A DNA stretch of 64,000 nucleotides from Collinsella sp. An2. GTDB lineage: Bacteria; Actinomycetota; Coriobacteriia; Coriobacteriales; Coriobacteriaceae. Of the stretch, positions 1,652 through 27,791 are shown piece after piece; positions within the stretch are counted from its first letter, which is position 1; each line of letters opens with the position of its first letter. The translations under genes were made by a program, and so were the position numbers. A model generated the notes under the pieces. It was given only the letters and a program-made list of their open reading frames with translations, did no database searches and was not told the origin of the DNA. The stretch spans positions 1 through 64,000 of the forward strand of contig NZ_NFJW01000001.1 of the NCBI RefSeq assembly GCF_002160065.1, read 5' to 3'.

Positions 1652-2710
1652 ATGGATAGACCGGAAGAACGCGGTGGCGCACAGGGCCATCCGTCTCAGC
1701 GGGGGAGCGCTGCGTCCCCGATGATTGATAGCGCGCCGGCGGGCGGCACTCAGGGCTTTACGCCGAAGGGTGGCCTACAGGCTTTCGCAACGCGCGGTAC
1801 TTCGGAGCTGCTTCGCGAGCTCGATGAGCTCAAGCGCCAACACGACGCGGTGGTGCTCGCCCACTACTACGTGGGCGCCGAGGTGCAGCGGGCGGCCGAT
1901 TTCGTGGGAGACTCCTTTGCTCTGGCGAGGTTGGCCACGACGGTGCCGCAGCGCACCCTCGTGATCGCCGGCGTCTCGTTTATGGCCGAGAGCATGAAGC
2001 TCCTGAATCCCGATAAGCGGGTGCTTGCCCCCGACCTTTCTGCAGATTGCCCCATGGCCCACATGGTGAACCCCGAGACGGTGCGCCGGGCGCGGGAGCG
2101 CTACGGCGACGACCTGGCCGTCGTGTGCTATGTGAACTCGACGGCCGAGATTAAAAGCTGGAGCGACGTGTGTGTGACCTCGTCGAACGCGGTGAAGATC
2201 GTGCGCAACCTTTCCCAGCATCATGTGCTGTTTATTCCGGATGAGCATCTGGGGCGCTATGTCGCGCGCCAGGTGCCCGAGAAGCATGTGATCCTCAATG
2301 ATGGGTGCTGCCCCTTCCATGCACAGATTACTGCACAGGAGGTTCGGGCGCTCAAGCAGGCGCACCCAGATGCCCCCGTGCTTGCGCATCCCGAGTGCGC
2401 TTCCGAGGTGCTCGAGCTCGCCGATATCGTGGGTTCTACGGCCGAGATTATCGACGCGGCCGCCGCAAGCGATGCCCAAGAGTTCATCGTGGTCACCATG
2501 GCTGGAGTGCAGGCAGAGCTCGAGCGTCGCTGCGGGGCAGACAGGCGCTTCTATTTCACGGGCACGTCGCGCTGTCCGGAGATGGACAAGCTCACGCTGG
2601 AAAAGCTTGTGGCGTGCCTGCGCGACGGCACCGGCGAGGTGCCCATGCCGGCCTGCGCCGGCCAGGCGGCGGCAACGCTCGACCGCATGCTTGCATACGC
2701 GGCGCGCTGA
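1652..2710 (+). CDS. nadA: quinolinate synthase A
   Basis: Condenses iminoaspartate (from NadB) with dihydroxyacetone phosphate to quinolinate, using an oxygen-sensitive 4Fe-4S cluster. Family blocks are clear: AHYYVGAEVQ near the N-terminus, SADCPMAHMV, NSTAEIKSWSDVCVTSSNAVKI, ILNDGCCPFHAQI, and AHPECASEV. Candidate cluster cysteines lie in SADCPMA, HPEC and TSRCPEMDK. The start at 1652 (352 aa) is chosen for AAGGA about 9 bases upstream. Starts at 1625 or 1721 are possible, since the first 40 residues are poorly conserved and low in structure. First gene of nadABC; nadB follows after 10 bases. Confidence 0.96.
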   Translation: MDRPEERGGAQGHPSQRGSAASPMIDSAPAGGTQGFTPKGGLQAFATRGTSELLRELDELKRQHDAVVLAHYYVGAEVQRAADFVGDSFALARLATTVPQRTLVIAGVSFMAESMKLLNPDKRVLAPDLSADCPMAHMVNPETVRRARERYGDDLAVVCYVNSTAEIKSWSDVCVTSSNAVKIVRNLSQHHVLFIPDEHLGRYVARQVPEKHVILNDGCCPFHAQITAQEVRALKQAHPDAPVLAHPECASEVLELADIVGSTAEIIDAAAASDAQEFIVVTMAGVQAELERRCGADRRFYFTGTSRCPEMDKLTLEKLVACLRDGTGEVPMPACAGQAAATLDRMLAYAAR

Positions 2711-2720
2711 GGGGGCAACA

Positions 2721-4331
2721 ATGCAGACCGACAGGGACATCACGAGCCCGATTTGCAGCCAAGCAGGGTGCCTGCCACGCGACCTGACGTGCGATGTGGT
2801 GATCGTGGGATGCGGCGTCGCGGGGCTCTATACGGCGCTCTCGTTGCCGCAGGGCACCAAGACGATCATGCTGTCCAAAGGCGCGATCGACGAATGCGAT
2901 TCCATGCTGGCCCAGGGCGGCATCTGCGTGCTGCCCGAGGCCGAGGACTACGACGCCTATACCGAGGACACCATGCGCGCCGGCCATTACGAGAACCGGC
3001 GCGAGAGCGTCGACATCCTGCTGCGGTCCAGCAGAAGCGCCATCAACGACCTTCTGGCGCTTGGGGTGGATCTGGAGCGCGCTGCGGACGGCTCGCTGGC
3101 ATTTACCCGCGAGGGCGCGCACAGCCGGCCGCGCATCTGCTATCACGCGGACGTTACGGGGCAGGCGATCACCTCGAAGCTTCTGGAGCGCGTGCGTGAG
3201 CTGCCCTGGGTGACCATCGTGGAGCATATGGCCTGCATCGACCTGCTTGAGGATGCGGCAGCTGCCGAAGCGGGTGGCGCGGCGGACGCGGCGGCAGCCG
3301 CGGCAAACGATGTGGCGAGCCCCGCCTCCGGCGTGGCGCCGCGCTGTACGGGCGTGGTCGCGGTTCCGGTGACCGAAGGCGCCTCGACGCGCAAGGCTTC
3401 CGAGCTCGCCGGACGCGCGCCAGAGGACTCAGTGAACATCCACGCCCGCGCCGTCGTGCTCGCGACGGGCGGCATTGGCGGGCTCTATGAGCGTTCGACC
3501 AACTATCCCCAGCTTACGGGTGATGCCTGCGATATCGCTGCGGCTCATGGCGCCGTGCTGGAGCACATGGATTACGTGCAGATCCATCCCACAAGCCTCT
3601 ACGAGGGGCCCCAGGCGACCGGCCGCGCGTTCTTGATTTCGGAGTCTTGTCGCGGCGAGGGCGCGGTGCTGCTCAACCGGGCAGGGGAACGCTTTTGTGA
3701 CGAGTTGCAGCCGCGAGATGTGGTGACCGCAGCCATCCAGCGTCAGATGGAGCTCGACGACATGCCCTATGTGAGGCTTTCGTTTGAACGGGTGCCCGAC
3801 GATGTGATTCGAGGCCATTTCGCCAACATCTACGAGCATTGCCTAGCTGCTGGATACGACCTGTGTCACGAGCCCATTCCTGTGGTGCCGGCGCAGCACT
3901 ACTTCATGGGCGGCATCCACGTAGACCGCGACTCTGCGACGACGGTGCCCGGTCTCTATGCCGTGGGCGAGACCAGCTGCACGGGCGTGCACGGCAAGAA
4001 CCGTCTGGCAAGCAACAGTCTGCTCGAGGCGCTCGTGTTCGCACGGCGTGCCGCGTTTCGCATTGCAAAGGGAGAGAGCCTGCCGGTGGAGTGCGTAGGC
4101 GAGCCACCGCTCGATGGGCGCCATCGTGCGACCGGGTCGTATCGTTCGGGGCTGGACGTGCTGACGCGCGACGAGGGGGCGTCTCCCGCTGGCACCGCGG
4201 CGAAGGCGGGCGCGCGTCCCGGTGCAAATGGGACATGCGGCCCGAGAAGCGACGCCCGTACGGCTGCTGCAGAATACGACGCCGCCGCGCTGCTTGTGAC
4301 GGCCGGCAACACAAGGGAGGAAGTCCGATGA
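2721..4331 (+). CDS. nadB: L-aspartate oxidase
   Basis: Flavoprotein that oxidises L-aspartate to iminoaspartate for NadA; in an anaerobe fumarate is the likely electron acceptor. The N-terminus carries the FAD dinucleotide motif (VVIVGCGVAGLYTALSL). The succinate dehydrogenase/fumarate reductase-type block MLAQGGICV follows. HPTSLYEGP, SESCRGEGAVLLN and the C-terminal FMGGIHVD...GLYAVGETSCTGVHGKNRLASNSLLEALVF are all present. An alanine-rich insert of about 40 residues (positions 180-230) is longer than usual. At 536 aa it has a normal size but a short helical C-terminal domain. The start at 2721 follows GAGGGGG; the stop overlaps the nadC start (ATGA at 4328-4331). Confidence 0.96.
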   Translation: MQTDRDITSPICSQAGCLPRDLTCDVVIVGCGVAGLYTALSLPQGTKTIMLSKGAIDECDSMLAQGGICVLPEAEDYDAYTEDTMRAGHYENRRESVDILLRSSRSAINDLLALGVDLERAADGSLAFTREGAHSRPRICYHADVTGQAITSKLLERVRELPWVTIVEHMACIDLLEDAAAAEAGGAADAAAAAANDVASPASGVAPRCTGVVAVPVTEGASTRKASELAGRAPEDSVNIHARAVVLATGGIGGLYERSTNYPQLTGDACDIAAAHGAVLEHMDYVQIHPTSLYEGPQATGRAFLISESCRGEGAVLLNRAGERFCDELQPRDVVTAAIQRQMELDDMPYVRLSFERVPDDVIRGHFANIYEHCLAAGYDLCHEPIPVVPAQHYFMGGIHVDRDSATTVPGLYAVGETSCTGVHGKNRLASNSLLEALVFARRAAFRIAKGESLPVECVGEPPLDGRHRATGSYRSGLDVLTRDEGASPAGTAAKAGARPGANGTCGPRSDARTAAAEYDAAALLVTAGNTREEVR

Positions 4332-5185
4332 ATCCGGTAACGATGAAGCTGGTGGGCGATGACGCGATTCTGCGCGCCCTTCGAGAGGACATCACGTACG
4401 AAGATGTGAGCACCATGGCGGTATGTCCCGAGGCGCGATCTGCCGAGGTCCAGCTTATTGCCAAGGCGGCGGGGGTCATTGCCGGGCTCGACGTGTTCGC
4501 CCGAACGTTTGCGCTGCTTGACGAGAGCTCGTGGGTCGATGTGCGCGTGCAGGACGGCGAGGAAGTCGAGCCGGGGCAGCTGCTCGCCGTAGTTGTCGGC
4601 GACGTGCGCGCCCTGCTCTCGGGCGAGCGTGTTGCCCTGAACTTTCTGCAGCGCATGAGCGGTATCGCCACCTATACGCGGCGCATGGTGCGTGCGCTCG
4701 AGGGGACGAAGACCGTGCTGGTGGACACGCGCAAGACCACGCCGGGCCTGCGCATCTTCGAGCGCGAGGCCGTGCGGCTGGGAGGGGGATGCAACCATCG
4801 CTTCAACCTTTCGACGGCGGTCATGCTCAAGGACAACCATATCGATGCGGCGGGCGGCGTCACGCAGGCCGTTCGCGCGGTCCGCGCGCGGGCACCGTTC
4901 ACCTGCACCGTAGAGGTGGAATGCGAGAGCCTGGACATGGTTCGCGAGGCGGTCGATGCCGGCGCGGATATCATCATGCTCGACAACATGGGGCACGATG
5001 AGATGGCGTCCGCGATCGAGCTTATCGCCGGTCGGGCAAAGACCGAGGTGTCGGGCAATGTCGATGCTCAGAACATTCGCTCCCTGGCAGACCTGGGCGT
5101 CGACTACATATCATCGGGCGCGCTGACGCATTCGGCGCCGATTCTGGACGTGTCGCTGAAGCATCTTCGCATGCTGGACGCGTGA
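4328..5185 (+). CDS. nadC: nicotinate-nucleotide pyrophosphorylase (carboxylating)
   Basis: Converts quinolinate and PRPP to nicotinate mononucleotide, the third step of de novo NAD synthesis. Recognisable segments are GEDITYEDVS-like REDITYEDVSTMAV at the N-terminus, LNFLQRMSGIATYTRRMV, the substrate-binding block VDTRKTTPGLRIFEREAV, GGGCNHRFNLSTAVMLKDNHI, VEVECESLDM, and the C-terminal barrel motif VDYISSGALTHSA. It has 285 residues, the standard length. The start overlaps the nadB stop by four bases, so the two are translationally coupled. Confidence 0.97.
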   Translation: MNPVTMKLVGDDAILRALREDITYEDVSTMAVCPEARSAEVQLIAKAAGVIAGLDVFARTFALLDESSWVDVRVQDGEEVEPGQLLAVVVGDVRALLSGERVALNFLQRMSGIATYTRRMVRALEGTKTVLVDTRKTTPGLRIFEREAVRLGGGCNHRFNLSTAVMLKDNHIDAAGGVTQAVRAVRARAPFTCTVEVECESLDMVREAVDAGADIIMLDNMGHDEMASAIELIAGRAKTEVSGNVDAQNIRSLADLGVDYISSGALTHSAPILDVSLKHLRMLDA

Positions 5186-5370
5186 CGCTGGACGAGGTGC
5201 GGCAGGGCGTATAGCATGCGGGTTGCGCGTGCGGGCAGGTGCCGGTGCTTCGGGTACGCGGTGCGGCGCCGCGCTAACCGGAGTGCGTGCCGCGGCGGGA
5301 TGCTTTACCGTGGCGTCTGGGCGCCATGATGGCGCGGGCTGAGATTCTTGGTGTGGGAGGTTGAGCTGAC

Positions 5371-5925
5371 ATGACGGGATCCGAGCGCAGGGATGCCATC
5401 CTGGGGGCGTTGCGTGCCGCCAGCAAGCCGCTCCCAGGAAGCGCCCTGGCGCGTCTTGGCGGCGTAAGCCGCCAGGTGGTGGTGCAGGACATCGCGCTGC
5501 TTCGAGCCGACGGGCACGACATCGCCGCGACCAACCGCGGGTATGTGCTGCGCGATGCCGAGGATGCGACGCGTCCGGTGCGCCTGTTCAAGGTGCGTCA
5601 TACCGCCGAGCAGCTGGAAGATGAGCTCACCTGCATCGTCGATCTGGGCGGCGAGGTGCTCGACGTGACCGTGAACCATCGCGTGTATGGCAAGATTTCC
5701 GCTCCGCTGGGCGTGAGGAGCAGGCGCGATGTTGAGCAGTATCTCGAAGGCATTCGAACGGGGAAGAGTTACCCGCTCATGACGGTGACGAGCGGATATC
5801 ACTTCCATCGCGTCGCAGCGGATTCGCCTGAGGTGCTCGACGAGATCGAGGCTGCGCTGCGGGCGCGTGGGTACCTGGCGCCCATGCTGCCCTATGAGCA
5901 GGAGGCCGCGTCTTCGGGGTTATGA
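5371..5925 (+). CDS. niaR: niacin-responsive transcriptional repressor NiaR
   Basis: A 184-residue regulator with an N-terminal helix-turn-helix (about residues 5-60; LARLGGVSRQVVVQDIALLRADG) and a C-terminal 3H domain. The conserved histidines of that domain are visible in KVRHTAEQLEDE, VTVNHRVYGKI and TSGYHFHRVA. The family binds nicotinic acid as co-repressor and shuts off NAD synthesis and niacin uptake genes. Its place right after nadC (185-base gap, own GGGAGG site) fits control of nadABC through the repeats at 1554-1614. The spacing leaves room for a separate promoter. Confidence 0.93.
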   Translation: MTGSERRDAILGALRAASKPLPGSALARLGGVSRQVVVQDIALLRADGHDIAATNRGYVLRDAEDATRPVRLFKVRHTAEQLEDELTCIVDLGGEVLDVTVNHRVYGKISAPLGVRSRRDVEQYLEGIRTGKSYPLMTVTSGYHFHRVAADSPEVLDEIEAALRARGYLAPMLPYEQEAASSGL

Positions 5926-6226
5926 GACTTTGACAAAAAGCGCGCCTAATCTTGCGCTGCTCCCCGATTTCCGATGCTAGGAGAAACTCGTTTCGTTTTT
6001 ATGCAGTTGTTTTCAGAAATTCCGAGTAGACCGCCTTCTCAGGCCCTTGAATCCTGGCCTTTTGTCGACGAAATCGGCCGTCTACTCGGGGATTCCCGAA
6101 CTAACTGCATAAAAACGAAACGAGTTTCTGAAATGCTTCTCGTAACCCACTGTTACTGGCGTCGAGAGCCACTCTTGAGCCCGTTCGCGTATACAGGGCG
6201 AAGCGCCTTCGCAGAAACAGGGCTAA
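5926..6226. other. gene-free region holding a long inverted repeat
   Basis: No gene is supported between niaR and the ferredoxin terminator. The region is dominated by the 148-base inverted-repeat element described at 5982-6129; outside it I see nothing specific. Confidence 0.7.
5982..6129. repeat. long inverted-repeat element, copy 1 (27-bp arms)
   Basis: Arms 5982-6008 and 6103-6129 are perfect 27-bp reverse complements. Exactly 13 bases inside each arm lies a second complementary pair, CCGAGTAGAC (6022-6031) with GTCTACTCGG (6080-6089). The 48-base apical region can form a third small stem (AGGCC 6041-6045 with GGCCT 6056-6060). The element sits between convergent genes niaR and the ferredoxin. 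The same architecture with different arm sequence occurs at 27869-28017. There is no long T-run, so it is not a simple terminator. Confidence 0.9.
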
Positions 6227-6254
6227 TTAAAAAGGGCTCCCCGAAGGGAGCCCC
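6227..6254 (-). terminator. rho-independent terminator of the ferredoxin gene
   Basis: On the minus strand GGGGCTCCC pairs with GGGAGCCC across a tiny loop and is followed by TTTTT. It lies about 25 bases downstream of the ferredoxin stop. Confidence 0.9.
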
Positions 6255-6277
6255 GAGCTTGCGATAGCGATGGACTA

Positions 6278-6463
6278 CTAGTCCTCGGCGATCTCGGTGA
6301 TCGCGCCGGCCGGGCAAGACTCCTGGCAAACGCCGCAGGCGATGCAAGAATCCTCGTCGACTACGGTCGCGACGTCCTGGACCTCGAGAACGCCCTGGGG
6401 GCAGTCGTCAACGCAGACGCCACAGGCGATGCACTCATCGGCATCGATAACGGGATGTGCCAT
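6278..6463 (-). CDS. 2[4Fe-4S] bacterial-type ferredoxin
   Basis: A 61-residue clostridial-type ferredoxin, a low-potential electron carrier in anaerobic metabolism. Two CxxCxxCxxxCP motifs are complete: CIACGVCVDDCP and CIACGVCQESCP. The protein is acidic and ends EIAED. The start at 6463 is supported by GAGGAGG on the minus strand just upstream. It forms its own transcription unit and ends at the strong terminator 6227-6254. Confidence 0.95.
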   Translation of the reverse strand: MAHPVIDADECIACGVCVDDCPQGVLEVQDVATVVDEDSCIACGVCQESCPAGAITEIAED

Positions 6464-6835
6464 AGTTTCCTCCTCTGTTCGTGCCCGATGCCGTAGGCGA
6501 TGTGACATCGAGTCGTGTGGCTTCAATATACCCCGAGACGACTTCAATGCAACCCCTTGCGCCCAGCTTTTCATACCGTTCGCCGAGTAAGCCACGGCTT
6601 ACTGCCTGCGGGTTTGCTGTCGGTGCGGGAACGCTGGAACAAGGCGCGCCCGCCAAACGAGGGGGTTCAAATGCCAGGTGAGATTACTTGCTTGTCCATC
6701 AAACAAAAAATCTTATATGAATTGACTTAGATTTTGTATATAAGTCGGCTCAGGGGGATATGATAGAGAGCGAACGAACAGAGACGTGCCGGGCACGAGC
6801 GAAAGGATGCCCGGCAACGAAGGAAGGGATTATCC
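6464..6835 (+). promoter_or_regulatory. dnaK upstream region and leader
   Basis: No gene is seen in this 372-base stretch. It holds a small hairpin (AGTAAGCC 6586-6593 with GGCTTACT 6596-6603), the heat-shock element at 6708-6740, and a leader hairpin (TGCCGGGCA 6787-6795 with TGCCCGGCA 6808-6816) just before the dnaK ribosome-binding site GGAAGGGA. A candidate promoter is TTGTCC (near 6693) and TATATG (near 6714), 16 bases apart. Confidence 0.55.
6708..6740 (+). promoter_or_regulatory. heat-shock element shared with clpB
   Basis: AAATCTTATAT, six bases, then ACTTAGATTTTGTATA. The same two blocks with the same 6-base gap lie upstream of clpB at 49336-49368 (28 of 33 bases identical). The dnaK copy continues to TAAG, giving the imperfect palindrome CTTAGAT-N5-ATATAAG. 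HspR is encoded in the same operon and normally binds inverted repeats at dnaK and clpB promoters, so this is a likely HspR operator, although it differs from the classical HAIR sequence. Confidence 0.6.
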
Positions 6836-8731
<1,896 letters not shown>

Positions 8732-18509: not shown

Positions 18510-19382
18510 CTAGCCCCACAGCTCGCGGATGCGGCTCAGGAAGACTTCCGCGGCGGGCGAGAAGGATTGGTAGCGCTTCCAGGCAATGAAGATGTCGGCC
18601 GTGACGGCGGGCTCAAGCGGCCGAAACGCCAGACCGCTTGTGGGCGACGTGTCAACGATGCCCTCGAGGCTTATGACGTAGCCCACGCCGCGCCGCGCCA
18701 ACAGCGAGGCGTTGTACAGCAGGTTGTAGGTGGCCACGACATCCAGCTCGGCAAAGTCGCGGCGAAACCACGTCTGCATCTCGCGGCTTGCCTGGGCAGA
18801 GAAGATGAGCGGCTTGTCGGCAAGGTCTTCGGCATGTATAACGTCCAGGCTGGCCAGGGGGTCGCTCGACGGCATGAAGACGCCCCAGCGGTCGCGCGCC
18901 GGCAGCTGCAGGCATTCATAGCGGTCCAGGTTGGCGTGGCCCACAAATACGCCGAAGTCGATGCGCCCATTGTCCAGGCGCTCGCTTACATCTTCGGCGT
19001 TGCCGCTGTGCAGGGCGAAGCGCATGAGGGGGTAGGTCTCCTGCAGCTCGGCTACGACGTCGGCTACGAGCGCCATGGCGGGCGTCTCGCCGCCGCCGAT
19101 GCGCACCTCACCGGCAAGGGTGTCGGCAGAGACATGGAACTCGGCCTCGGTGCGGCCTACAAGGTCCACGATCTCTTCGGCGCGCCGGCGTAGGCGCATG
19201 CCTGCCTCGGTAAGCTCAATGCGCCGCCGGCCGCGGTCGAACAGCTTGCAGCCCAGCTCGTGCTCCAGGTCCTGCATCTGGCGCGAGAGCGACGGCTGAG
19301 AGAGGTGAAGGACCTGCGCCGCACCCGAGATGGTTCCCTCGCGGGCAATCATAAGGAAATACTGCAGGTGGCGAAGTTCCAT
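18510..19382 (-). CDS. LysR family transcriptional regulator
   Basis: 290 residues. The N-terminal HTH (MELRHLQYFLMIAREGTISGAAQVLHLSQPSLSRQMQDLEHELG) is canonical, and the C-terminal part is a two-lobed effector domain. It lies 18 bases downstream of the TetR gene on the same strand, so the two are probably one transcript, divergent from the redox island that begins at 20368. A role in controlling that island is inferred from position only; the effector is unknown. Confidence 0.9.
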   Translation of the reverse strand: MELRHLQYFLMIAREGTISGAAQVLHLSQPSLSRQMQDLEHELGCKLFDRGRRRIELTEAGMRLRRRAEEIVDLVGRTEAEFHVSADTLAGEVRIGGGETPAMALVADVVAELQETYPLMRFALHSGNAEDVSERLDNGRIDFGVFVGHANLDRYECLQLPARDRWGVFMPSSDPLASLDVIHAEDLADKPLIFSAQASREMQTWFRRDFAELDVVATYNLLYNASLLARRGVGYVISLEGIVDTSPTSGLAFRPLEPAVTADIFIAWKRYQSFSPAAEVFLSRIRELWG

Positions 19383-19400: not shown

Positions 19401-20042
19401 TTATGACGTGTAGTGTTCCAAACACATGCCGATGAAGTCGCACATGCTGTCGCGGAAGTCGCGGTCGTACCCCTTGACCTCCAGGATGTCGAGTGCCTGC
19501 TGCACGAGCGGATTGCTCATGCAATAGCCCACCAGGCCGACAGCGTGGAAGTAGATAGCCAGAAGCAGCTCGGACACGTGTTCCTGCGATATGGGGATGA
19601 TCTGCGGGAGGCGTTCGCCCAAGCGGTCGACATTGCGGTAGTAGTTGCGTTTGAATTCCACCAGGCGGTCGATGGTCACGTTGGTCTCGATGACGGCGGG
19701 GAGCAGGTCTCCCAGGCGGAAGTAGTCCTGATGGGCGTTGGCGATGCCTGCCCATACCTCGGCGATCACGGGCGGCGCGAGGCCGCAGCCCTCGGGCAGT
19801 GCCGCGAGCAGGGCGTCGTAGTAAGCGTCGCAGGCATCGGCCGCAAGCAGGAGGAAAATCTCCTCCTTGGTGGTGACATACTTATATAGGTTGGCGCGCG
19901 ACCAGCCGAGCTCTTCGGCAATCGTGGTGAGCGTGATCTCGTGATAGGGACGCTCGGAGAACTGTCGACGAGCAACGTCCTTAATCTGCGTGAGTCGTTG
20001 CTCTTTCTGTTCGGCGCTGCGTGCGCGAATAAACTCTGCCAT
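19401..20042 (-). CDS. TetR family transcriptional regulator
   Basis: 213 residues. HTH at about residues 15-60 (RRQFSERPYHEITLTTIAEELGWSRANLYKYVTTKEEIFLLL), and a helical C-terminal domain of the kind annotated TetR_C in LuxR-like regulators. Divergent from the flavin reductase-like gene at 20368, with a perfect 6-bp inverted repeat between them (20127-20146). Likely represses its own operon and/or the redox island. Confidence 0.9.
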   Translation of the reverse strand: MAEFIRARSAEQKEQRLTQIKDVARRQFSERPYHEITLTTIAEELGWSRANLYKYVTTKEEIFLLLAADACDAYYDALLAALPEGCGLAPPVIAEVWAGIANAHQDYFRLGDLLPAVIETNVTIDRLVEFKRNYYRNVDRLGERLPQIIPISQEHVSELLLAIYFHAVGLVGYCMSNPLVQQALDILEVKGYDRDFRDSMCDFIGMCLEHYTS

Positions 20043-20367
20043 GATGCTTCCTCCATTGATACGTCAAGAAGTATAGCGCAGCTTATTAAAAAAATAAGAG
20101 ATAAATCGTCGCTAAACACTTTACAAATTACGTGACGTTGCGTAATCTAAAATCCGGTAAAGAGACGTCAGGTTGGTGGGTGAGAGGCCGGCAGCACTGC
20201 GATTGACGGTCCCATCGGAGCCCGTTGACGTGCTTGTCTCGCATTACCGGCCGGACGGGCGTCTCAACAAACACAGCAGAATCGCCACGACGCCCGCCTG
20301 TGCCTCGCGCAGCGGACTGCGCTGTGCCCGCAAACATGAGGCGATTCCGTCTTCTATGGGAGGAACC
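20043..20367. promoter_or_regulatory. divergent region of the TetR/LysR pair and the redox island
   Basis: ATTACG (20127-20132) and CGTAAT (20141-20146) form a perfect inverted repeat with an 8-base gap, a good TetR operator candidate. CTTATT and AATAAG around 20083-20100 form an AT hairpin. The remaining 220 bases before the first island gene are GC-rich and hold no convincing gene. Confidence 0.5.
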
Positions 20368-20907
20368 ATGAAAAAGAACCTTGGTAGCTTGCTCGCTCTG
20401 TATCCCACCCCGGCGACCCTCGTGGGCGCGATGGTGGACGGTAAGCCCAACTGGATGCAGGTTGCCCACGTGGGCATCATCGGACACGACCGCATCATGA
20501 TCAGCTGCATGTCGAATCACTACACCAACAAGGGCATCCGCGAGACGGGCGTGGTGTCGGTAAGCCTGTGCGACCGCGCGATGCTGCCCGAGCTTGACCG
20601 CGCCGGCGCAGGCTCTGGTGCCAAGACGGACAAGTCGGAGCTGCTTGCCTGGACGCCTGCCGAGAACGGCGCGCCCGTGCCCGAGAAGGCGCCGCTCACG
20701 CTTGTCTGCCATGTGGTGGATACCTATGAGACCGAGAACTTTGACAACTTCGTGCTTGCGATTGACGCCACGCTCGTGGAGGAGGACAAGCTCGACGATG
20801 CCGGCAAGCCCGACTACGGCAAGATCTCTCCGGTGCTCTTTGAGTTCCCCACGTACTCGTATTACGCCACGGGCGAGAAGATCGGCAAGTGCCTGAGCTT
20901 CAAGTAA
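20368..20907 (+). CDS. flavin reductase-like protein (FMN-binding split barrel)
   Basis: 179 residues. The pattern LALYPTPATLVGAMVDGKPNWMQVAHVGIIGHDRIMISC followed by HYTNKGIRETGVVSVSL matches the flavin reductase/FMN-binding split-barrel family, which reduces free flavin or acts as a small flavoprotein. The start at 20368 is fixed by GGGAGGA. First gene of a same-strand series of flavin proteins reaching to 28467. The electron donor and acceptor cannot be read from sequence. Confidence 0.85.
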   Translation: MKKNLGSLLALYPTPATLVGAMVDGKPNWMQVAHVGIIGHDRIMISCMSNHYTNKGIRETGVVSVSLCDRAMLPELDRAGAGSGAKTDKSELLAWTPAENGAPVPEKAPLTLVCHVVDTYETENFDNFVLAIDATLVEEDKLDDAGKPDYGKISPVLFEFPTYSYYATGEKIGKCLSFK

Positions 20908-20990: not shown

Positions 20991-21461
20991 ATGGCTGGTA
21001 AGACATTAGTTGCATATTTCTCGGCGAGTGGGACCACGGCGCGCGTGGCACAGCAGGTAGCCGGCGCCGTCGGGGCCGACACGTACGAGATCGTCGCGGA
21101 TCCGCGCTACACGGCCGCCGATCTCGATTGGCAGAACAAGCGCAGCCGCAGTTCGCTTGAGATGAACGACGAGTCGTGCCGCCCTGCCATCGCGGGCGCG
21201 CTTCCCGACATGTCGGGCTACGATGTCGTGCTTTTGGGATTCCCCATCTGGTGGTACAAGGAGCCGCGCATCGTCGACACCTTCATTGAGGGCATCGACC
21301 TTTCTGGCAAGCGCGTGGTTCCGTTTGCGACGTCGGGCGGCTCGGGCATCGGTGGCGCCGAGTCGCATATGAAGGGGCTGTGCCCGGACGCCCTATGGCA
21401 GTCCGGACGCCTGCTCAACGGCGGAGATGCCGCCGCGTGGGCGCGTTCGGTCTGCGCGTAG
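20991..21461 (+). CDS. flavodoxin, cytoplasmic
   Basis: 156 residues without signal peptide. The phosphate loop is VAYFSASGTTARVAQQV, and the flavin-stacking region is LLGFPIWWYKEPRIVDTFIEG. The C-terminal GGSGIGGAESHMKG is typical of the flavodoxin_4 group. It probably binds FMN and carries single electrons. Closely related domains occur in the exported proteins at 22683 and 23461, so this may be the cytoplasmic partner. Start at 20991 after AGGAGG. Confidence 0.9.
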   Translation: MAGKTLVAYFSASGTTARVAQQVAGAVGADTYEIVADPRYTAADLDWQNKRSRSSLEMNDESCRPAIAGALPDMSGYDVVLLGFPIWWYKEPRIVDTFIEGIDLSGKRVVPFATSGGSGIGGAESHMKGLCPDALWQSGRLLNGGDAAAWARSVCA

Positions 21462-21478: not shown

Positions 21479-22549
21479 ATGGGTTCGATGACACGCAAAG
21501 CGTTCCTGGCGAGCGTGGGCGTCCTTGCCGCCGCAGGCGTTGCCGGCTGTGCCGGCGGCGCATCTGGGGAAGGCGAGCCTGCGGCAGGGTCTGTTTCCGG
21601 GCGGGCCGAAGACTCTGCTCCAGGGACGGCCCCAGCTGGGTCTGCGCCGACAGACGGCTCCGTCTCAGGCGACGGTGGGGCGTCCCGGGTCTTTTTCACG
21701 CGGGACATCTCGCCTGCTGGCCTGCAGGCGGCCTTCGACGCACTTGGCGTCGAGCCGGCCGGCAACGTGGCAGTGAAGCTCTCCACAGGCGAGCCGGGTG
21801 GGAACAACTTCCTCTCGACCGACCTCATCGGCGACTTCGTGCGCAGCCTGGGCGCCACGATCGTGGAGTGCAATACGGCCTACGGCGGCGCGCGCTCCTC
21901 GACCGAGAGCCACCTGCAGGCGGCGGCCGACCATGGCTTTACCGCGATCGCGGACGTAGACATCATGGACGCGGAGGGCTCGATATCGCTTCCCGTCACG
22001 GGCGGCGCACATCTGACCGAGGACCTCGTGGGCGCACATCTGGCCAACTACGACTACGTGGTGTCGCTCGCGCACTTCAAGGGGCATGCGATGGGCGGCT
22101 TCGGCGGCGCCATCAAGAACTGCTCTATCGGCATCGCCGCGCGCGAGGGCAAGATGCTCATCCACTCCGCCGGCACCTCGGCCACGAGCTGGGGAAACCC
22201 TGCGCAGGACGATTTTCTAGAGTCTATGGCCGAGGCGGCGAAGGCCGTGAGCGACCACTTTGGCGGCGTGGGCGGCAGCATGTGCTACGTGAACGTCATG
22301 AATCGACTCTCGGTGGACTGCGACTGCGACTCCCACCCGGCCGAGCCCGAGATGGCAGACATCGGAATCCTGGCGTCGCTCGATCCCGTGGCGCTCGACC
22401 GTGCCTGCGTGGACCTGGTCTACGCCGCACCCGACGGCGCGGCGCTCATCGAGCGCATGGAGAGCCGCCATGGCGCACACACACTCGAGCATGCCGAGGC
22501 GATTGGGCTGGGAAGCCAGAGCTACACGCTGGTCGACCTCGACGCGTGA
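21479..22549 (+). CDS. DUF362 domain lipoprotein
   Basis: 356 residues. The N-terminus (MTRKAFLASVGVLAAAGVAGCAGG) is a signal peptide with lipobox VAGC, then a Ser/Gly/Ala-rich linker of about 45 residues. The DUF362 domain follows (NVAVKLSTGEPGGNNFL, YVVSLAHFKGHAMGGFGGAIKNCSIGIAAREGK, DIGILASLDPVALDRACVDLVY). DUF362 proteins often bind iron-sulfur clusters or are linked to redox enzymes, but this copy has no ferredoxin motif. It starts 17 bases after the flavodoxin. Exported to the outer face of the membrane. Confidence 0.85.
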   Translation: MGSMTRKAFLASVGVLAAAGVAGCAGGASGEGEPAAGSVSGRAEDSAPGTAPAGSAPTDGSVSGDGGASRVFFTRDISPAGLQAAFDALGVEPAGNVAVKLSTGEPGGNNFLSTDLIGDFVRSLGATIVECNTAYGGARSSTESHLQAAADHGFTAIADVDIMDAEGSISLPVTGGAHLTEDLVGAHLANYDYVVSLAHFKGHAMGGFGGAIKNCSIGIAAREGKMLIHSAGTSATSWGNPAQDDFLESMAEAAKAVSDHFGGVGGSMCYVNVMNRLSVDCDCDSHPAEPEMADIGILASLDPVALDRACVDLVYAAPDGAALIERMESRHGAHTLEHAEAIGLGSQSYTLVDLDA

Positions 22550-22682
22550 GTGCCGCAGCCGTGTGGCTCTGCTCGGCCGTAAAGGCGATGCTTGTCCTGT
22601 TGAGCGTTCGCGCCAGGGCGGGCGTGTAGTGGCAGGTGAGAGCGACCTGGTGGATGGACCTATTGGTTGGAGGATGAAGACC

Positions 22683-23375
22683 ATGACACGTATGACCGAT
22701 CTTGAGATCTCGCGCCGACGCCTGCTCAAGGACGTGGCGGCGCTCATCGCTGTGGTGCCGTTTGCCGGTTCGCTGGCTGCGTGCGGGCAGGAGCCTGCCG
22801 ACGACTCGGCAAACGACTCGGCAAACGATGCGGCTTCTGGAAGCGCGGCGGAGCCCGAGGCCCCGGAGACGTCCGATGACGCTGCCGCGCCGGAGGCTGC
22901 TGCCGGCTCCACGTTGGTGGCGTACTTCTCGGCAACCGGCAACACCGAGGGCGTCGCGCAGGCGATTGCCGAGCGGCTGGGTGCCGACGTGTTTGCCATC
23001 GAGGCAGCCGATCCCTACACGGCTGAGGATCTCAACTACAACGACGACGCGAGCCGCACAAGCCAGGAGCGCACCGATGCGCATCCCGAGCTTGCGCAGG
23101 TGACGCCCGACGGTTGGGAGGGATACCAGACGGTGCTTCTGGGCTATCCCATCTGGTGGGGCGAGGCGGCATGGCCGCTGCGCACCTTCGCTGCGGGCAA
23201 CGATTTTGCCGGCAAGACCGTGGTGCCTTTCTGCACGAGCGCGTCTTCGGGAATCGGTCGCAGCGGCGACGGTCTGGCCGAACTCGCCGGCTCCGGCGAT
23301 TGGCGCGAGGGCGAGCGATTCGCGGCCGGCGCGGGCGACGACGCTGCCGCCTGGGCCGAGGGCCTGGGACTGTAA
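22683..23375 (+). CDS. Tat-exported flavodoxin lipoprotein
   Basis: 230 residues. The N-terminus has a twin-arginine motif (SRRRLLK), a hydrophobic stretch and lipobox LAAC, then an acidic Asp/Ser/Ala linker (about 30-75), then a flavodoxin_4 domain: LVAYFSATGNTEGVAQAIAE, DLNYNDDASRTSQER, VLLGYPIWWGEAAWPLRTF, SGIGRSGDGLAEL. Tat export fits a protein that must bind FMN before secretion. The start at 22683 is preferred (GGAGG 9 bases upstream) over ATG at 22674. Flavodoxins are normally cytoplasmic, so an anchored extracytoplasmic copy is unusual. Confidence 0.88.
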   Translation: MTRMTDLEISRRRLLKDVAALIAVVPFAGSLAACGQEPADDSANDSANDAASGSAAEPEAPETSDDAAAPEAAAGSTLVAYFSATGNTEGVAQAIAERLGADVFAIEAADPYTAEDLNYNDDASRTSQERTDAHPELAQVTPDGWEGYQTVLLGYPIWWGEAAWPLRTFAAGNDFAGKTVVPFCTSASSGIGRSGDGLAELAGSGDWREGERFAAGAGDDAAAWAEGLGL

Positions 23376-23460
23376 GACGTTTATCGGTAGATGATGCGGC
23401 GGGGCGGTCTTGGATCCGCGCCGCCGCGATGCTAACGACGCTGTGAGGAAGGAGGAGTGT

Positions 23461-24930
23461 GTGGACGATAGGGGTATGACGCTCACCAGGCGTTCGCTTT
23501 TGGGCGTCGCTGGTGCGGCTGCAGCATCGTCGCTGGCTGCCTGTTCATGGACGCCGCGTTCGGAGTCTGCTGAGGGGCCGTCCAACGCAGTCGACGCCAA
23601 CGTCGAGGCGGAGCAGCAGGTCTCCGTAGACGACGGCTTCGTTGCGGTGACGGGCGGTACGTTTCTTATGGGAAGCCCTGAGGATGAACCATGGCGCAGC
23701 GCGGACGAGACGCAGCACGAGGTCGCAGTCTCGAGCTTTTTCATCGACCCATATGAGGTGACGCAGGCCGACTACGCTCGTCTCATGGGTGATAATCCCA
23801 GCGTCAACCAGGGGGATACCCTGCCCGTCGAGAACGTCACGTGGCTTCAGGCCGTCGAATACTGCAACGCGCGCTCCGCGGAGGCCGGCCTTACGCCCGC
23901 CTATGAGATTGACGGCGATGCGGTTTCGTGGGATCGCGCGGCCGATGGGTATCGTCTTCCCACAGAGGCCGAGTGGGAGTACGCATGCCGCGCGGGCACG
24001 ACGACTCCCTTCAACACCGAGACCTCTATCAGCCCGGACACCGAGGCAAACTACTATGGGACCTATCCCTACGAGATCGAAGACAACTACTTCGATTGCG
24101 GGGCGCTTCAGACGCAGCCCGGCATCTACCGTCAAACAGAGGTCGAGTCTGGAACGTTTGCCCCCAACGCATGGGGTCTCTATGACATGCACGGCAACGT
24201 GGCCGAGTGGGTGTGGGACCTCTATGGCGCCTACGACGAGGAGGCGTCGGCAGATCCCGTTGGCCCCGAGGAGGGAGCGCTGCGCGTGAACCGCGGCGGA
24301 GGCTGGAACGACTTCGCCAAGAACCTGCGAAGCGCCTACCGGGCGTCCCTCGCACCCGATGCCTCGAGTCCAAGCGTGGGATTCCGCGTGGCCCGAGGTG
24401 CGCTTGCGGGAGCGTCTCTGGTGGGCGGAGCCGCCGGCGCTCAGGGTGCGGCTGGCGGCGATGGCATCATCGTTTTCTTTAGCTGGAGCGGCAACACGCG
24501 CGACATCGCCGGCCAGATTGCCGAGCGTATAGGATTCGAGGCTGTTGAGCTTGAGCTTGTCGAACCGTATTCGACCGACTACTCTACGGTGCTCGACCAG
24601 GCGCAGGCGGATCAGGCTGCCCAGGCGCGTCCCGAGCTTGCCACGCATATCGACATGGATCGCTTTGGCACGGTGCTATTGGGCTATCCCAACTGGTGGG
24701 CGTCCATTCCCATGCCCATTGCGTCCTTCCTGGAGTCGGCTGACTTCTCGGGCAAGCTCATATGCCCCTTCTGCAGCCACGGCGGCGGGAGGCTGGGCCA
24801 GAGCGTGACGGCTATTTCCAAACTCGTGCCGACAGCGCGCGTGGGCGAGGCGCTCTCCGTGCACTATGGCGGCGACTCCGAGCTGCCCGGCCAGATTGAT
24901 GCCTGGCTTGCGGCGAACGGGGTGGCGTGA
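23461..24930 (+). CDS. Tat lipoprotein: FGE-sulfatase-like domain fused to flavodoxin
   Basis: 489 residues. Signal with twin arginine (LTRRSLLG) and lipobox LAAC; linker to about residue 55; then a formylglycine-generating-enzyme-like domain (GTFLMGSPEDEPWRSADETQHEVAVSSF, RLPTEAEWEYACRAG, GLYDMHGNVAEWVWDLYG, RVNRGGGWNDFAKNLRSAYR, VGFRVARG). From about residue 335 a flavodoxin domain follows (IIVFFSWSGNTRDIAGQIAE, VLLGYPNWWASIPMPI). True FGE enzymes have two cysteines in the segment after RGGSW; here it reads NDFAKNLRSAYRA with none, so formylglycine formation is unlikely. GTG start at 23461 is set by GGAAGGAGGA. The stop overlaps the next gene. Confidence 0.88.
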   Translation: MDDRGMTLTRRSLLGVAGAAAASSLAACSWTPRSESAEGPSNAVDANVEAEQQVSVDDGFVAVTGGTFLMGSPEDEPWRSADETQHEVAVSSFFIDPYEVTQADYARLMGDNPSVNQGDTLPVENVTWLQAVEYCNARSAEAGLTPAYEIDGDAVSWDRAADGYRLPTEAEWEYACRAGTTTPFNTETSISPDTEANYYGTYPYEIEDNYFDCGALQTQPGIYRQTEVESGTFAPNAWGLYDMHGNVAEWVWDLYGAYDEEASADPVGPEEGALRVNRGGGWNDFAKNLRSAYRASLAPDASSPSVGFRVARGALAGASLVGGAAGAQGAAGGDGIIVFFSWSGNTRDIAGQIAERIGFEAVELELVEPYSTDYSTVLDQAQADQAAQARPELATHIDMDRFGTVLLGYPNWWASIPMPIASFLESADFSGKLICPFCSHGGGRLGQSVTAISKLVPTARVGEALSVHYGGDSELPGQIDAWLAANGVA

Positions 24931-25655
24931 TGGCGGCGTCTGACAAAGGGGCGACGCGCCTGCCTGGGCAGCACGCACGGCAGCGCGGGCGCGCGGCACG
25001 CCGTGCGGTCGACATTGCCCTTGCCGCCGGGTTCTCGCTGGTGATGGCCACGGCGCTTGTGGAGGACGTTGCCCATGAGTGGATCGGCATCGGCGTGTTT
25101 CTGCTGGTGGTGACCCATCAGGTGCTCAACCGTTCTTGGTGGCGTACGCTTCTCCGCGGTCGCTGGTCTTTGCGCCGCGTGGTTTCATCTGCGGTGGATC
25201 TCTGCCTTGTTGTGGAGGTGCTCGCAATGCTGGCAAGCGCCTTGGTCGTCTCGGCGCATGCGTTCTCATGGTTGCCGGTCATTCCGGGTGCGGGCTGGGC
25301 GCGCCCGGCACATCTGCTCGGTTCGTACTGGGGTTATGTGCTTGTTGGGCTGCACACGGGCTTTCATGTGCAGCCGATGTTCGCACGGGCGTGGCGTCGT
25401 GGCAGATGCGTGCGTCTTGCGTTGCTGGCATGCTGCGCGGTCGTCCTTCTTGCCGGGGTGTGGTCGTTTGTGACGCTCGACGTGGGCGCCTATCTCACCT
25501 ATTCGTCGCCCTTCGTGTTCGTAGATTTCGACACGCCGTTTGCGCTGCGTTGGGTGCAGTGGCTCGCCGTGGGCGCGCTCTATGCGCTTGCGGGCTCGGC
25601 GCTGTGGGCGCTTATGGGCGGCGCTGCCGGGCGAAGACGGCAATCCCGTGCATGA
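24930..25655 (+). CDS. DUF4405 integral membrane protein
   Basis: 241 residues with five or six hydrophobic segments. Histidines lie at helix ends (AHEWIGIGVFLLVVTHQVLN, LVGLHTGFHVQPMF), the pattern of DUF4405 proteins, which resemble membrane b-type cytochromes. It could pass electrons from the quinone pool or cytoplasm to the extracytoplasmic flavodoxins; that is inference from position and histidines. Its ATG overlaps the preceding TGA stop (GTG at 24927 is an alternative), so it is translationally coupled to the fusion lipoprotein. Confidence 0.8.
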   Translation: MAASDKGATRLPGQHARQRGRAARRAVDIALAAGFSLVMATALVEDVAHEWIGIGVFLLVVTHQVLNRSWWRTLLRGRWSLRRVVSSAVDLCLVVEVLAMLASALVVSAHAFSWLPVIPGAGWARPAHLLGSYWGYVLVGLHTGFHVQPMFARAWRRGRCVRLALLACCAVVLLAGVWSFVTLDVGAYLTYSSPFVFVDFDTPFALRWVQWLAVGALYALAGSALWALMGGAAGRRRQSRA

Positions 25656-25690: not shown

Positions 25691-26236
25691 ATGACGGCTC
25701 GAAACGTAGTGGTTCTTTCGTCGAGTCCGCGTAAGGACGGCAACTCCGACATGCTGTGCCATGAGTTTGCCGCAGCGGCTCGTGAGGCGGGAGCCGCGGT
25801 CGACGAGGTCGCACTGCGAGATCTCAAGATCGCGCCGTGTCGGGCATGCTATGGCTGCTGGAACTCGCAGCGCTGCGTGCTGGGTGACGATGTGGCGCCG
25901 CTGCTTGAAAAGATCGCTGCAGCCGACGTCCTGTGTGTGGCGACGCCCGTGTACTTCGGGCTGCCGTGTGGCCAGCTCAAGGTCATGATCGACCGGCTGC
26001 TGCCGCTCTGGCAGGGCCTTGGCGGCAAGGATGTCTACCTTATTTTGACCGGCCACGATGGTCGCGCGGGCCTCGCGCACGCCGCAGATGACCTGCGCCT
26101 GGTGTTCGAGAACCTCGGTGACGCCGTGTGCGGAATCGTGTGGGGCGAGCACGTGTGGCAAAAGGGCGAGGTCGTGGGCACGGCGGCCGTGGCTGACGCG
26201 CGGCAGCTGGGCACACGGGCGGCACATGGGGCCTAG
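25691..26236 (+). CDS. NADPH-dependent FMN reductase / flavodoxin-fold protein
   Basis: 181 residues, cytoplasmic. The N-terminal VVLSSSPRKDGNSDMLCHEF is the FMN phosphate loop of the iron-sulfur flavoprotein/NQO-type family, followed by a cysteine cluster CRACYGCWNSQRC that in related proteins binds a 4Fe-4S cluster or forms disulfides. VATPVYFGLPCGQLKVMIDR is the conserved dimer/flavin region. A quinone- or flavin-reducing role is likely. Start at 25691 after AAGAAGGGG. Confidence 0.85.
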   Translation: MTARNVVVLSSSPRKDGNSDMLCHEFAAAAREAGAAVDEVALRDLKIAPCRACYGCWNSQRCVLGDDVAPLLEKIAAADVLCVATPVYFGLPCGQLKVMIDRLLPLWQGLGGKDVYLILTGHDGRAGLAHAADDLRLVFENLGDAVCGIVWGEHVWQKGEVVGTAAVADARQLGTRAAHGA

Positions 26237-26311: not shown

Positions 26312-27163
26312 ATGGATACAATTACCCTGAACAACGGAATCGAGATGCCGCTCGAGGGACTGGGCGTCTTTCAGGTGACGGACGAGGGCGAGTGCGAGCG
26401 CGCGGTGCGCACGGCGCTCGATCTTGGCTACCGGCTTGTGGATACGGCCGCTTGCTACGGCAACGAGCGCGCCGTGGGCAGGGCGCTCAAGGCGAGCGGG
26501 CTGCCGCGCGAGGAGGTCTTTCTGACCTCGAAGGTGTGGATCCAGGACGCAGGCTACGAGCGCACCATGGCGTCGTTTGACCGTACGCTCGAAAACCTGG
26601 GGACCGATTACCTGGACCTCTATCTCATCCACATGCCCTACGGCGACTATCACGGCAGCTGGCGCGCCATGGAGGAGCTGCTTCGGGCGGGTCGCGTGCG
26701 CGCCATCGGCGTGTGCAACTTCTTGCCCGACCGTCTGGCCGACCTCATCCTTGCACACCAGGTGGTGCCGGCAGTGAACCAGATCGAGCTGCATCCGTTT
26801 TGCCAGCAGCGGCGGCTCCGCCAGCTCATGGCTCGCTACGACATCGCGCCCATGGCATGGGCTCCCTTCGCCGAGGGCCAGCATGGGCTCTTCTCCAACC
26901 CCACGCTTACGGCCATCGGCGCGGCGCACAACAAGACGGCGGCCCAGGTGGTGCTGCGGTGGCTTCGCCAGGAGGGCATCATCGCTATCCCCAAGTCGGT
27001 ACACGAAGAGCGCATTTGCGAGAACTTTGACATTGACGACTTCGAGCTCACGCCGGCAGATCTTGCGCAGGTCGATGCGATGGACGAGGGCGTCCCGACG
27101 ATTCTGGACGTGCCGGACGTGTGCGAGGTGTACCGCCTGCACGGCATTACGTTCGAGCAGTAG
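26312..27163 (+). CDS. aldo/keto reductase (AKR5-like)
   Basis: 283-residue NADPH-dependent TIM-barrel oxidoreductase. All four catalytic residues are visible: Asp and Tyr in RLVDTAACYGNE, Lys in LTSKVWI, His in YLIHMPY. The C-terminal NADPH site is IAIPKSVHEERICENFDIDDFEL. Similar to 2,5-diketo-D-gluconate reductase-type enzymes, though the true substrate is unknown. The start at 26312 follows GGATGGAGGA. Confidence 0.93.
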   Translation: MDTITLNNGIEMPLEGLGVFQVTDEGECERAVRTALDLGYRLVDTAACYGNERAVGRALKASGLPREEVFLTSKVWIQDAGYERTMASFDRTLENLGTDYLDLYLIHMPYGDYHGSWRAMEELLRAGRVRAIGVCNFLPDRLADLILAHQVVPAVNQIELHPFCQQRRLRQLMARYDIAPMAWAPFAEGQHGLFSNPTLTAIGAAHNKTAAQVVLRWLRQEGIIAIPKSVHEERICENFDIDDFELTPADLAQVDAMDEGVPTILDVPDVCEVYRLHGITFEQ

Positions 27164-27251: not shown

Positions 27252-27791
27252 ATGAACATCGTGATTTTGCAGGGAAGTCCCAACCACAACGGCTCGACGG
27301 CGATGCTCGTCGAGGAGTTCGCTCGCGGCGCCCGCGAGGCGGGACATGCGGTTGAGCGCATCGACGTGTGTGCAGAGGACGTGAACCCGTGCCACGGCTG
27401 CGTGGCCTGTGGCTACGGTGCACGGCCGTGTGTGCAGCGCGACGGCATGGCGCGCATTCTCGACCGGGTGCTTGCGGCCGACATGCTCGTGCTGGCCACG
27501 CCGCTCTATTACTACGGCATGACCGCCCAGCTCAAAGCGGTTATCGACCGATTCTGCTCCGAGAACTCCGCGATTACAGCGAAGCGTCTGCGCTCGGCGC
27601 TCATCACGGTGGCGTGGAATGCCGACGACTGGACTTTTGAGGCGCTTGTGGCGCACTACCGCACGCTCGTGCGCTATCTTGACTTCAAGGATGCCGGCAT
27701 GGTGCTTGGCTACGGCTGCGGCACGCCCGGCATGACCAAGGCGTCGGGCGCCATGCTTAAGGCCTACGAGCTGGGACTGTCGCTGGAATAG
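27252..27791 (+). CDS. flavodoxin-family NAD(P)H-dependent oxidoreductase
   Basis: 179 residues. ILQGSPNHNGSTAMLVEEF is the FMN loop, followed by the cysteine cluster CHGCVACGYGARPCVQRDGM and VLATPLYYYGMTAQLKAVIDRF. A paralogue of the protein at 25691, probably a soluble flavin-dependent reductase of quinones or similar compounds. Start at 27252 after GGGAG. The long inverted repeat 27869-28017 lies just downstream. Confidence 0.88.
   Translation: MNIVILQGSPNHNGSTAMLVEEFARGAREAGHAVERIDVCAEDVNPCHGCVACGYGARPCVQRDGMARILDRVLAADMLVLATPLYYYGMTAQLKAVIDRFCSENSAITAKRLRSALITVAWNADDWTFEALVAHYRTLVRYLDFKDAGMVLGYGCGTPGMTKASGAMLKAYELGLSLE

Follow-up and report, generated by a model that had tools for sequence, protein, structure and literature searches.

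A putative extracytosolic electron-transfer module with an FGE-like/flavodoxin fusion lipoprotein and a DUF4405 membrane protein in Collinsella sp. An2

Described relatives and the layout of the locus

Flavodoxin_4 domains outside the cytosol have been described together with membrane proteins of the DUF4405 family. One DUF4405 protein was shown to bind heme b; it has six transmembrane helices and four central histidines, genes of this family are often encoded with apbE and flavinylated extracytosolic Flavodoxin_4 proteins, and transmembrane electron transfer has been proposed (PMC11334425, mSystems 2024). Flavinylation in these proteins has been proposed to protect the flavin from loss outside the cell (PMC11334425). 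DUF4405 also has a published structural similarity to MsrQ-like and PepSY-like proteins with four histidines (PMC11334425), membrane cytochromes that likewise have an extracytosolic redox partner. Solved Flavodoxin_4 structures from Bacteroides (3klb, 4ici, 4j8p) are single flavodoxin domains, 3klb with non-covalent FMN, and their records describe no FGE-like fusion or cytochrome partner. The PvdO/FGE-sulfatase superfamily (FGE, EgtB, GldK/PorK, TvpA) shares the FGE-type fold, and several of its members are extracytosolic. PvdO carries out an extracytosolic final oxidation for which the electron path is unresolved (PMC6206403).

The window analysed here is a stretch of 64,000 nucleotides of Collinsella sp. 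An2. Between positions 20991 and 27791 it holds a compact run of genes on the plus strand, part of what we call the island. The run begins with a cytosolic Flavodoxin_4 protein of 156 aa without signal peptide (20991–21461; PF12682, E = 1.7e-61; NCBIfam PRK07116 above cut-off), a candidate partner on the inner side of the membrane. It is followed by a DUF362 lipoprotein of 356 aa (21479–22549; PF04015, E = 8.2e-45), a Tat-type lipoprotein flavodoxin (22683–23375, although the start may be at 22674 instead), a Tat-type lipoprotein in which an FGE-like domain is fused to Flavodoxin_4 (23461–24930) and a DUF4405 protein (24930–25655). A cytosolic protein of the NADPH-dependent FMN reductase family (25691–26236; PF03358, E = 8.9e-24), an aldo/keto reductase (26315–27163; PF00248, E = 2.5e-48) and a second FMN_red/Flavodoxin_2 family protein (27252–27791; PF03358, E = 7.1e-21) complete the run. 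A counterpart of this last protein is present in the related islands L171–L174, L084, L086 and L088. The island also includes, on the plus strand, a gene for a cytosolic Flavin_Reduct domain protein (20362–20907; PF01613, E = 3e-15), a candidate for electron input. A LysR (18510–19382) and a TetR regulator (19401–20042) lie on the opposite, minus strand; the same pair is found beside the island in three relatives (G065, G026 and G020). Another open reading frame of the window, 2298–4328, was considered as an exported flavin reductase and rejected: it reads as cytosolic, without signal peptide, and we take it to be an L-aspartate oxidase-like FAD protein.

In DUF362 the cysteines C281 and C283 of a DCDC motif and a third cysteine, C310, are invariant in the 11 sequences compared, and they are possible metal or Fe-S ligands. 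Its signal is Tat-like, of RK type in the Collinsella genome and RR in two relatives. DUF362, an uncharacterised family, shares a Pfam clan with LarA (PMC11770544). When solved structures were searched with the DUF362 and DUF4405 sequences, no useful match came up.

The module appears to be of the DUF4405/extracytosolic Flavodoxin_4 kind of PMC11334425, in a version without the flavinylation motif. Unlike the published system it has neither flavinylation insert or motif nor a linked apbE; instead it has Tat lipoprotein export, a fused FGE-like domain, an island with DUF362 and FMN_red/AKR genes, and a Coriobacteriia host. It differs from the MsrQ/PepSY-like cytochromes in that the partner is a flavodoxin and no MsrP molybdoenzyme was found in the genes examined.

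Predicted exported flavodoxins, their putative flavin and the FGE-like domain

The initial annotation had described two consecutive genes with twin-arginine and lipobox N-termini, and these are seen in both. The N-terminal region of the Tat flavodoxin contains ..LEISRRRLLKDV..AGSLAAC and that of the fusion ..MTLTRRSLLGVAG..SSLAAC, in each case with a twin-arginine motif, a hydrophobic segment and the cysteine of a lipobox. The likely start of the fusion is the GTG at 23461, preceded by AGGAGGAG. All nine aligned fusion orthologues have the RR pair, and eight of the nine keep the lipobox cysteine; the RR and lipobox form of the Tat flavodoxin also occurs in relatives. Of the Tat machinery, on which that annotation depended, TatC is present in the Collinsella genome; it was found in 13 of 13 Coriobacteriia genomes tested. 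At the sequence level both proteins are confirmed as predicted membrane-anchored, exported flavodoxins. That both genes encode flavodoxins holds insofar as Flavodoxin_4 (curated cut-off 24 bits) is found in both: from residue 77 on in the Tat flavodoxin (114.1 bits, E = 5.5e-33) and at residues 336–460 of the fusion (59.6 bits, E = 3.2e-16). The second protein is an FGE-sulfatase and Flavodoxin_4 fusion, of which the initial annotation had missed the FGE-like domain. Flavodoxins are small electron carriers that normally stay within the cell. Location of such proteins outside the cytosol, which had been regarded as unusual, is retained as a prediction, but extracytosolic Flavodoxin_4 proteins have already been published, in flavinylated form (PMC11334425).

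FMN may occupy both flavodoxin domains, judging from conserved sequence motifs. The phosphate loop S(W/A)xGNT is conserved (SATGNT and SWSGNT), its residues being kept in the nine aligned fusion orthologues, and so is a GYPxWW loop. The nearest solved structures to the Tat flavodoxin are 4j8p, 4ici and 3klb, and the FMN complex 3klb is among the nearest folds of both domains. An [ST]GA[ST]-like flavinylation motif was absent from the flavodoxin domains of the window and from related flavodoxin open reading frames of the fetched loci, 87 in all, and ApbE flavinylation was rejected on this ground. The flavinylation insert was likewise not found in the window's flavodoxin domains. Two apbE genes of the Collinsella genome are both on other contigs. 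Since the motif is absent and apbE is unlinked to the module, the flavin, if present, should be non-covalent, and non-covalent FMN could be lost outside the cell. It is important to note that these conserved exported flavodoxins do without the very feature that the published account proposes to hold the flavin in place outside the cell.

The FGE-sulfatase domain (PF03781, E = 5.9e-46) spans residues 59–312 of the fusion, and the flavodoxin half extends over residues 336–485; the two-domain assignment is based on Pfam, orthologues, AlphaFold2 and Foldseek. The AlphaFold2 model of the fusion (pLDDT 80, pTM 0.76) has TvpA (2y3c), PvdO (5hha) and FGE among the best Foldseek matches of its N-terminal half, and the Flavodoxin_4 structures 4ici, 4j8p and 3klb for its C-terminal half. 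True FGE carries a Cu-binding cysteine pair in a C-terminal RGGS...C....C stretch. This pair is absent: the fusion has RGGGWNDFAKNLRSAYR there and no cysteine between residues 213 and 435. The RGGGWNDFAK stretch is conserved in the nine aligned orthologues. The N-terminal DinB domain of EgtB, with its iron-binding His, is absent as well, as the Pfam scan of the fusion gave FGE-sulfatase and Flavodoxin_4 only. True FGE or EgtB activity was rejected on these grounds. The PvdO equivalog model NF051459 scored 82.6 bits against a cut-off of 500 bits, so likeness to PvdO is one of fold only. Unlike the other members of the superfamily, the fusion joins this fold to a flavodoxin. The most economical reading is that the FGE-like domain serves as a ligand- or partner-binding module. 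A search of open-access literature turned up no previous description of an FGE-flavodoxin fusion.

Distribution of the fusion and its association with DUF4405

About 11 of the 400 Coriobacteriia genomes searched have a near-full-length orthologue of the fusion, with 58–68% identity, and two families (f2 and f3) are represented beside that of Collinsella sp. An2. The orthologue is in two pieces with a stop in G304 and has one in-frame stop in G376. Among 397 sampled genomes of the phylum, the fusion was found only in the Collinsella genome and one other of the same order. Among the matches listed, it also occurs in Clostridia MAGs (Lachnospiraceae, Clostridium and unclassified Clostridia), and a broken copy is found in a Solobacterium MAG. 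Named public genomes hold at least nearly 600 stretches matching the fusion. As orthologues are spread over three Coriobacteriia families and Clostridia, an accident or assembly artefact specific to the window was rejected. In a tree in which most forks are weak, four Clostridia copies group together, apart from those of Coriobacteriia. In genome G195 (locus L071, 1991–4646) the fusion has two more flavodoxin-like open reading frames nearby, in which long inserts precede the GNT loop.

The product of 24930–25655 had been described as a histidine-containing membrane protein in an electron chain. It is a membrane protein, and it could be identified further as a member of the DUF4405 cytochrome family (PF14358). 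The single-protein scan gave 23.2 bits, below the cut-off, and the genome search 26.9 bits, just above the cut-off of 26.7 bits; homologues confirm the assignment. His49, His63, His128 and His142 are invariant in 16 DUF4405 homologues. By analogy with the family member for which heme has been shown, the protein is probably a membrane heme b cytochrome.

Its gene is closely tied to the fusion. The fusion's TGA and the DUF4405 ATG have one base in common. All 12 Coriobacteriia genomes that carry the fusion, in G293 without its FGE part, also have DUF4405, and at E ≤ 1e-6 none of eight relatives without the fusion does; these genomes are related, so that the association does not represent independent events, and many of them are fragmented and probably MAGs. 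DUF4405 adjoins the fusion in 11 of the 12; in G317 the two are on separate contigs, and DUF4405 has a different flavodoxin nearby. In G003 (contig C2; loci L003 and L080, 8559–9269) remnants of the fusion and of DUF4405 lie side by side, adjoining an intact Tat flavodoxin, a case of joint decay.

The best evidence that DUF4405, the FGE-flavodoxin protein and DUF362 work together comes from natural fusions. More specifically, a Lachnospiraceae MAG (L082) has one open reading frame of 735 aa in which DUF4405 is followed by FGE-sulfatase and then Flavodoxin_4, all over the Pfam cut-offs, and in L086 (13504–15255) DUF4405 and DUF362 are in a single open reading frame. Joining of DUF4405, FGE and flavodoxin in one polypeptide argues that the parts belong together and that the flavodoxin faces outward. 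If DUF4405 has six transmembrane helices as published, an extra hydrophobic helix after it in L082 would place the FGE-flavodoxin part outside. The AlphaFold model of the three-domain protein is of low confidence (pTM 0.37), and for this reason we make no claim on heme-to-FMN geometry; a Foldseek search with it gave no cytochrome among the matches listed. In G293 the fusion (L081, 6300–7007, reverse strand) has lost the FGE-like domain in-frame, with signal, lipobox, linker and flavodoxin kept, and the FGE-like part is therefore dispensable there. The FGE-flavodoxin-cytochrome fusion suggests that these anaerobes have a discrete machine at their surface that reduces a substrate.

Comparative genomics of the 21479–25655 block thus gave a divided answer: the fusion goes with DUF4405, but the Tat flavodoxin does not have to. 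In four relatives (G065, G004, G026 and G020) fusion and DUF4405 are missing, yet the cytosolic flavodoxin, the Tat flavodoxin, FMN_red and AKR are retained, and in G004 and G026 DUF362 as well. Within the family the Tat flavodoxin can therefore occur without DUF4405, and in these four it needs another donor or role. The pair of fusion and DUF4405 resembles a cassette that was gained or lost by the island.

Relatives differ in their way of export. Coriobacteriia copies of the fusion have Tat lipoprotein signals, while the Bacillota relatives have Sec lipoprotein signals (L083 and L086), an N-terminal anchor (L085), a Sec-like leader (L084) or a DUF4405 domain (L082 and L088). A TatC search gave no match in four of six Clostridia hosts, genomes for which completeness is not given. 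Outward placement by unrelated means supports a function at the surface. FMN loading before export had been offered as the reason for Tat. As relatives are exported without Tat, this cannot be the general reason, and the proposal is weakened. Sec-exported relatives would have to acquire FMN outside. Export of the same protein by Tat in one phylum and by other means in another provides a natural comparison of how flavoproteins are loaded and retained outside the cell.

Electron donor, direction of flow and alternative explanations

It is likely that the block 22674–25655 encodes an extracytosolic electron-transfer module. The sequence itself shows the domains, the N-termini that direct the proteins outward, the invariant histidines expected to hold heme, the overlap of the two genes, their co-occurrence and the single-polypeptide fusion. 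DUF4405, as a heme b cytochrome of the membrane, would pass electrons to the outside, and the FGE-flavodoxin lipoprotein at the outer face would take them into non-covalent FMN. The FGE-like domain may keep a substrate, a ligand or a partner near the flavin, and the Tat flavodoxin may be a second carrier at the same place. The most likely source of the electrons would be the island's own cytosolic reductases (Flavin_Reduct, FMN_red and cytosolic flavodoxin), with menaquinol less likely. The membrane-to-surface chain of the initial annotation is well supported as a chain of fusion and DUF4405, by co-occurrence and the one-polypeptide relative; a membrane (quinol) donor is doubtful from the UbiA and MenA searches, and the quinones, drugs or dietary compounds named in that annotation would be candidate acceptors. 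More tentatively, and with rather less confidence than the module itself, we propose a class of surface oxidoreductases in Coriobacteriia and Clostridia in which an FGE-fold selects the substrate and a flavodoxin with non-covalent FMN reduces it via DUF4405 heme b, in some cases within a single polypeptide. Such enzymes would need no covalent flavinylation and, in several hosts, probably no quinones.

A respiratory chain fed by quinol and ending in two Tat-exported, FMN-preloaded flavodoxins that reduce dietary or drug acceptors would agree with the Tat motifs and TatC, with the resemblance of DUF4405 to b-type cytochromes and with the one UbiA-family protein of the Collinsella genome. It is unlikely, as the same genome gave no match to MenA, export of the protein does not depend on Tat in close relatives, and the FGE-like domain is left unexplained. 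Moreover, of 17 genomes searched, each a carrier of the fusion (FGE-less in G293), 10 had no UbiA-family match, several of the ten being incomplete or of unstated completeness, while 14 of 14 control genomes had one. Because several hosts gave no match to a UbiA prenyltransferase, a cytosolic donor is more consistent with the data, and it is probably a flavin or flavodoxin reductase of the island. Menaquinol as a general donor is weakened by these searches, with the Collinsella genome itself kept as a possible exception.

Electrons could also run the other way. Flavodoxins usually work at low potential, which favours donation and speaks against an inward path, in which a PvdO-like oxidase would oxidise an extracellular substrate and flavodoxin and DUF4405 would carry the electrons in. 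PvdO (5hha) is among the best fold matches and acts outside the cytosol with an unsettled electron path (PMC6206403), and electron carriers beside an oxidase-like domain would fit. No siderophore or other substrate pathway was recognised among the genes examined around the module, and in G293 flavodoxin and DUF4405 remain without the FGE-like domain; we regard this reversal as quite improbable. Very remote is the idea that the FGE-like/flavodoxin lipoproteins only bind or scavenge flavin at the surface without electron transfer: it would suit Sec-exported relatives, which would pick up FMN outside, but it leaves unaccounted for that these proteins are tightly linked, and in places fused, to a family of heme cytochromes.

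The Collinsella genome has two DUF4405 genes, both near Tat flavodoxins. In the second cluster (L169, G000:C1:366000-380000) positions 5082–7216 encode a Tat flavodoxin, a Peptidase_S9-like protein and DUF4405, in this order.
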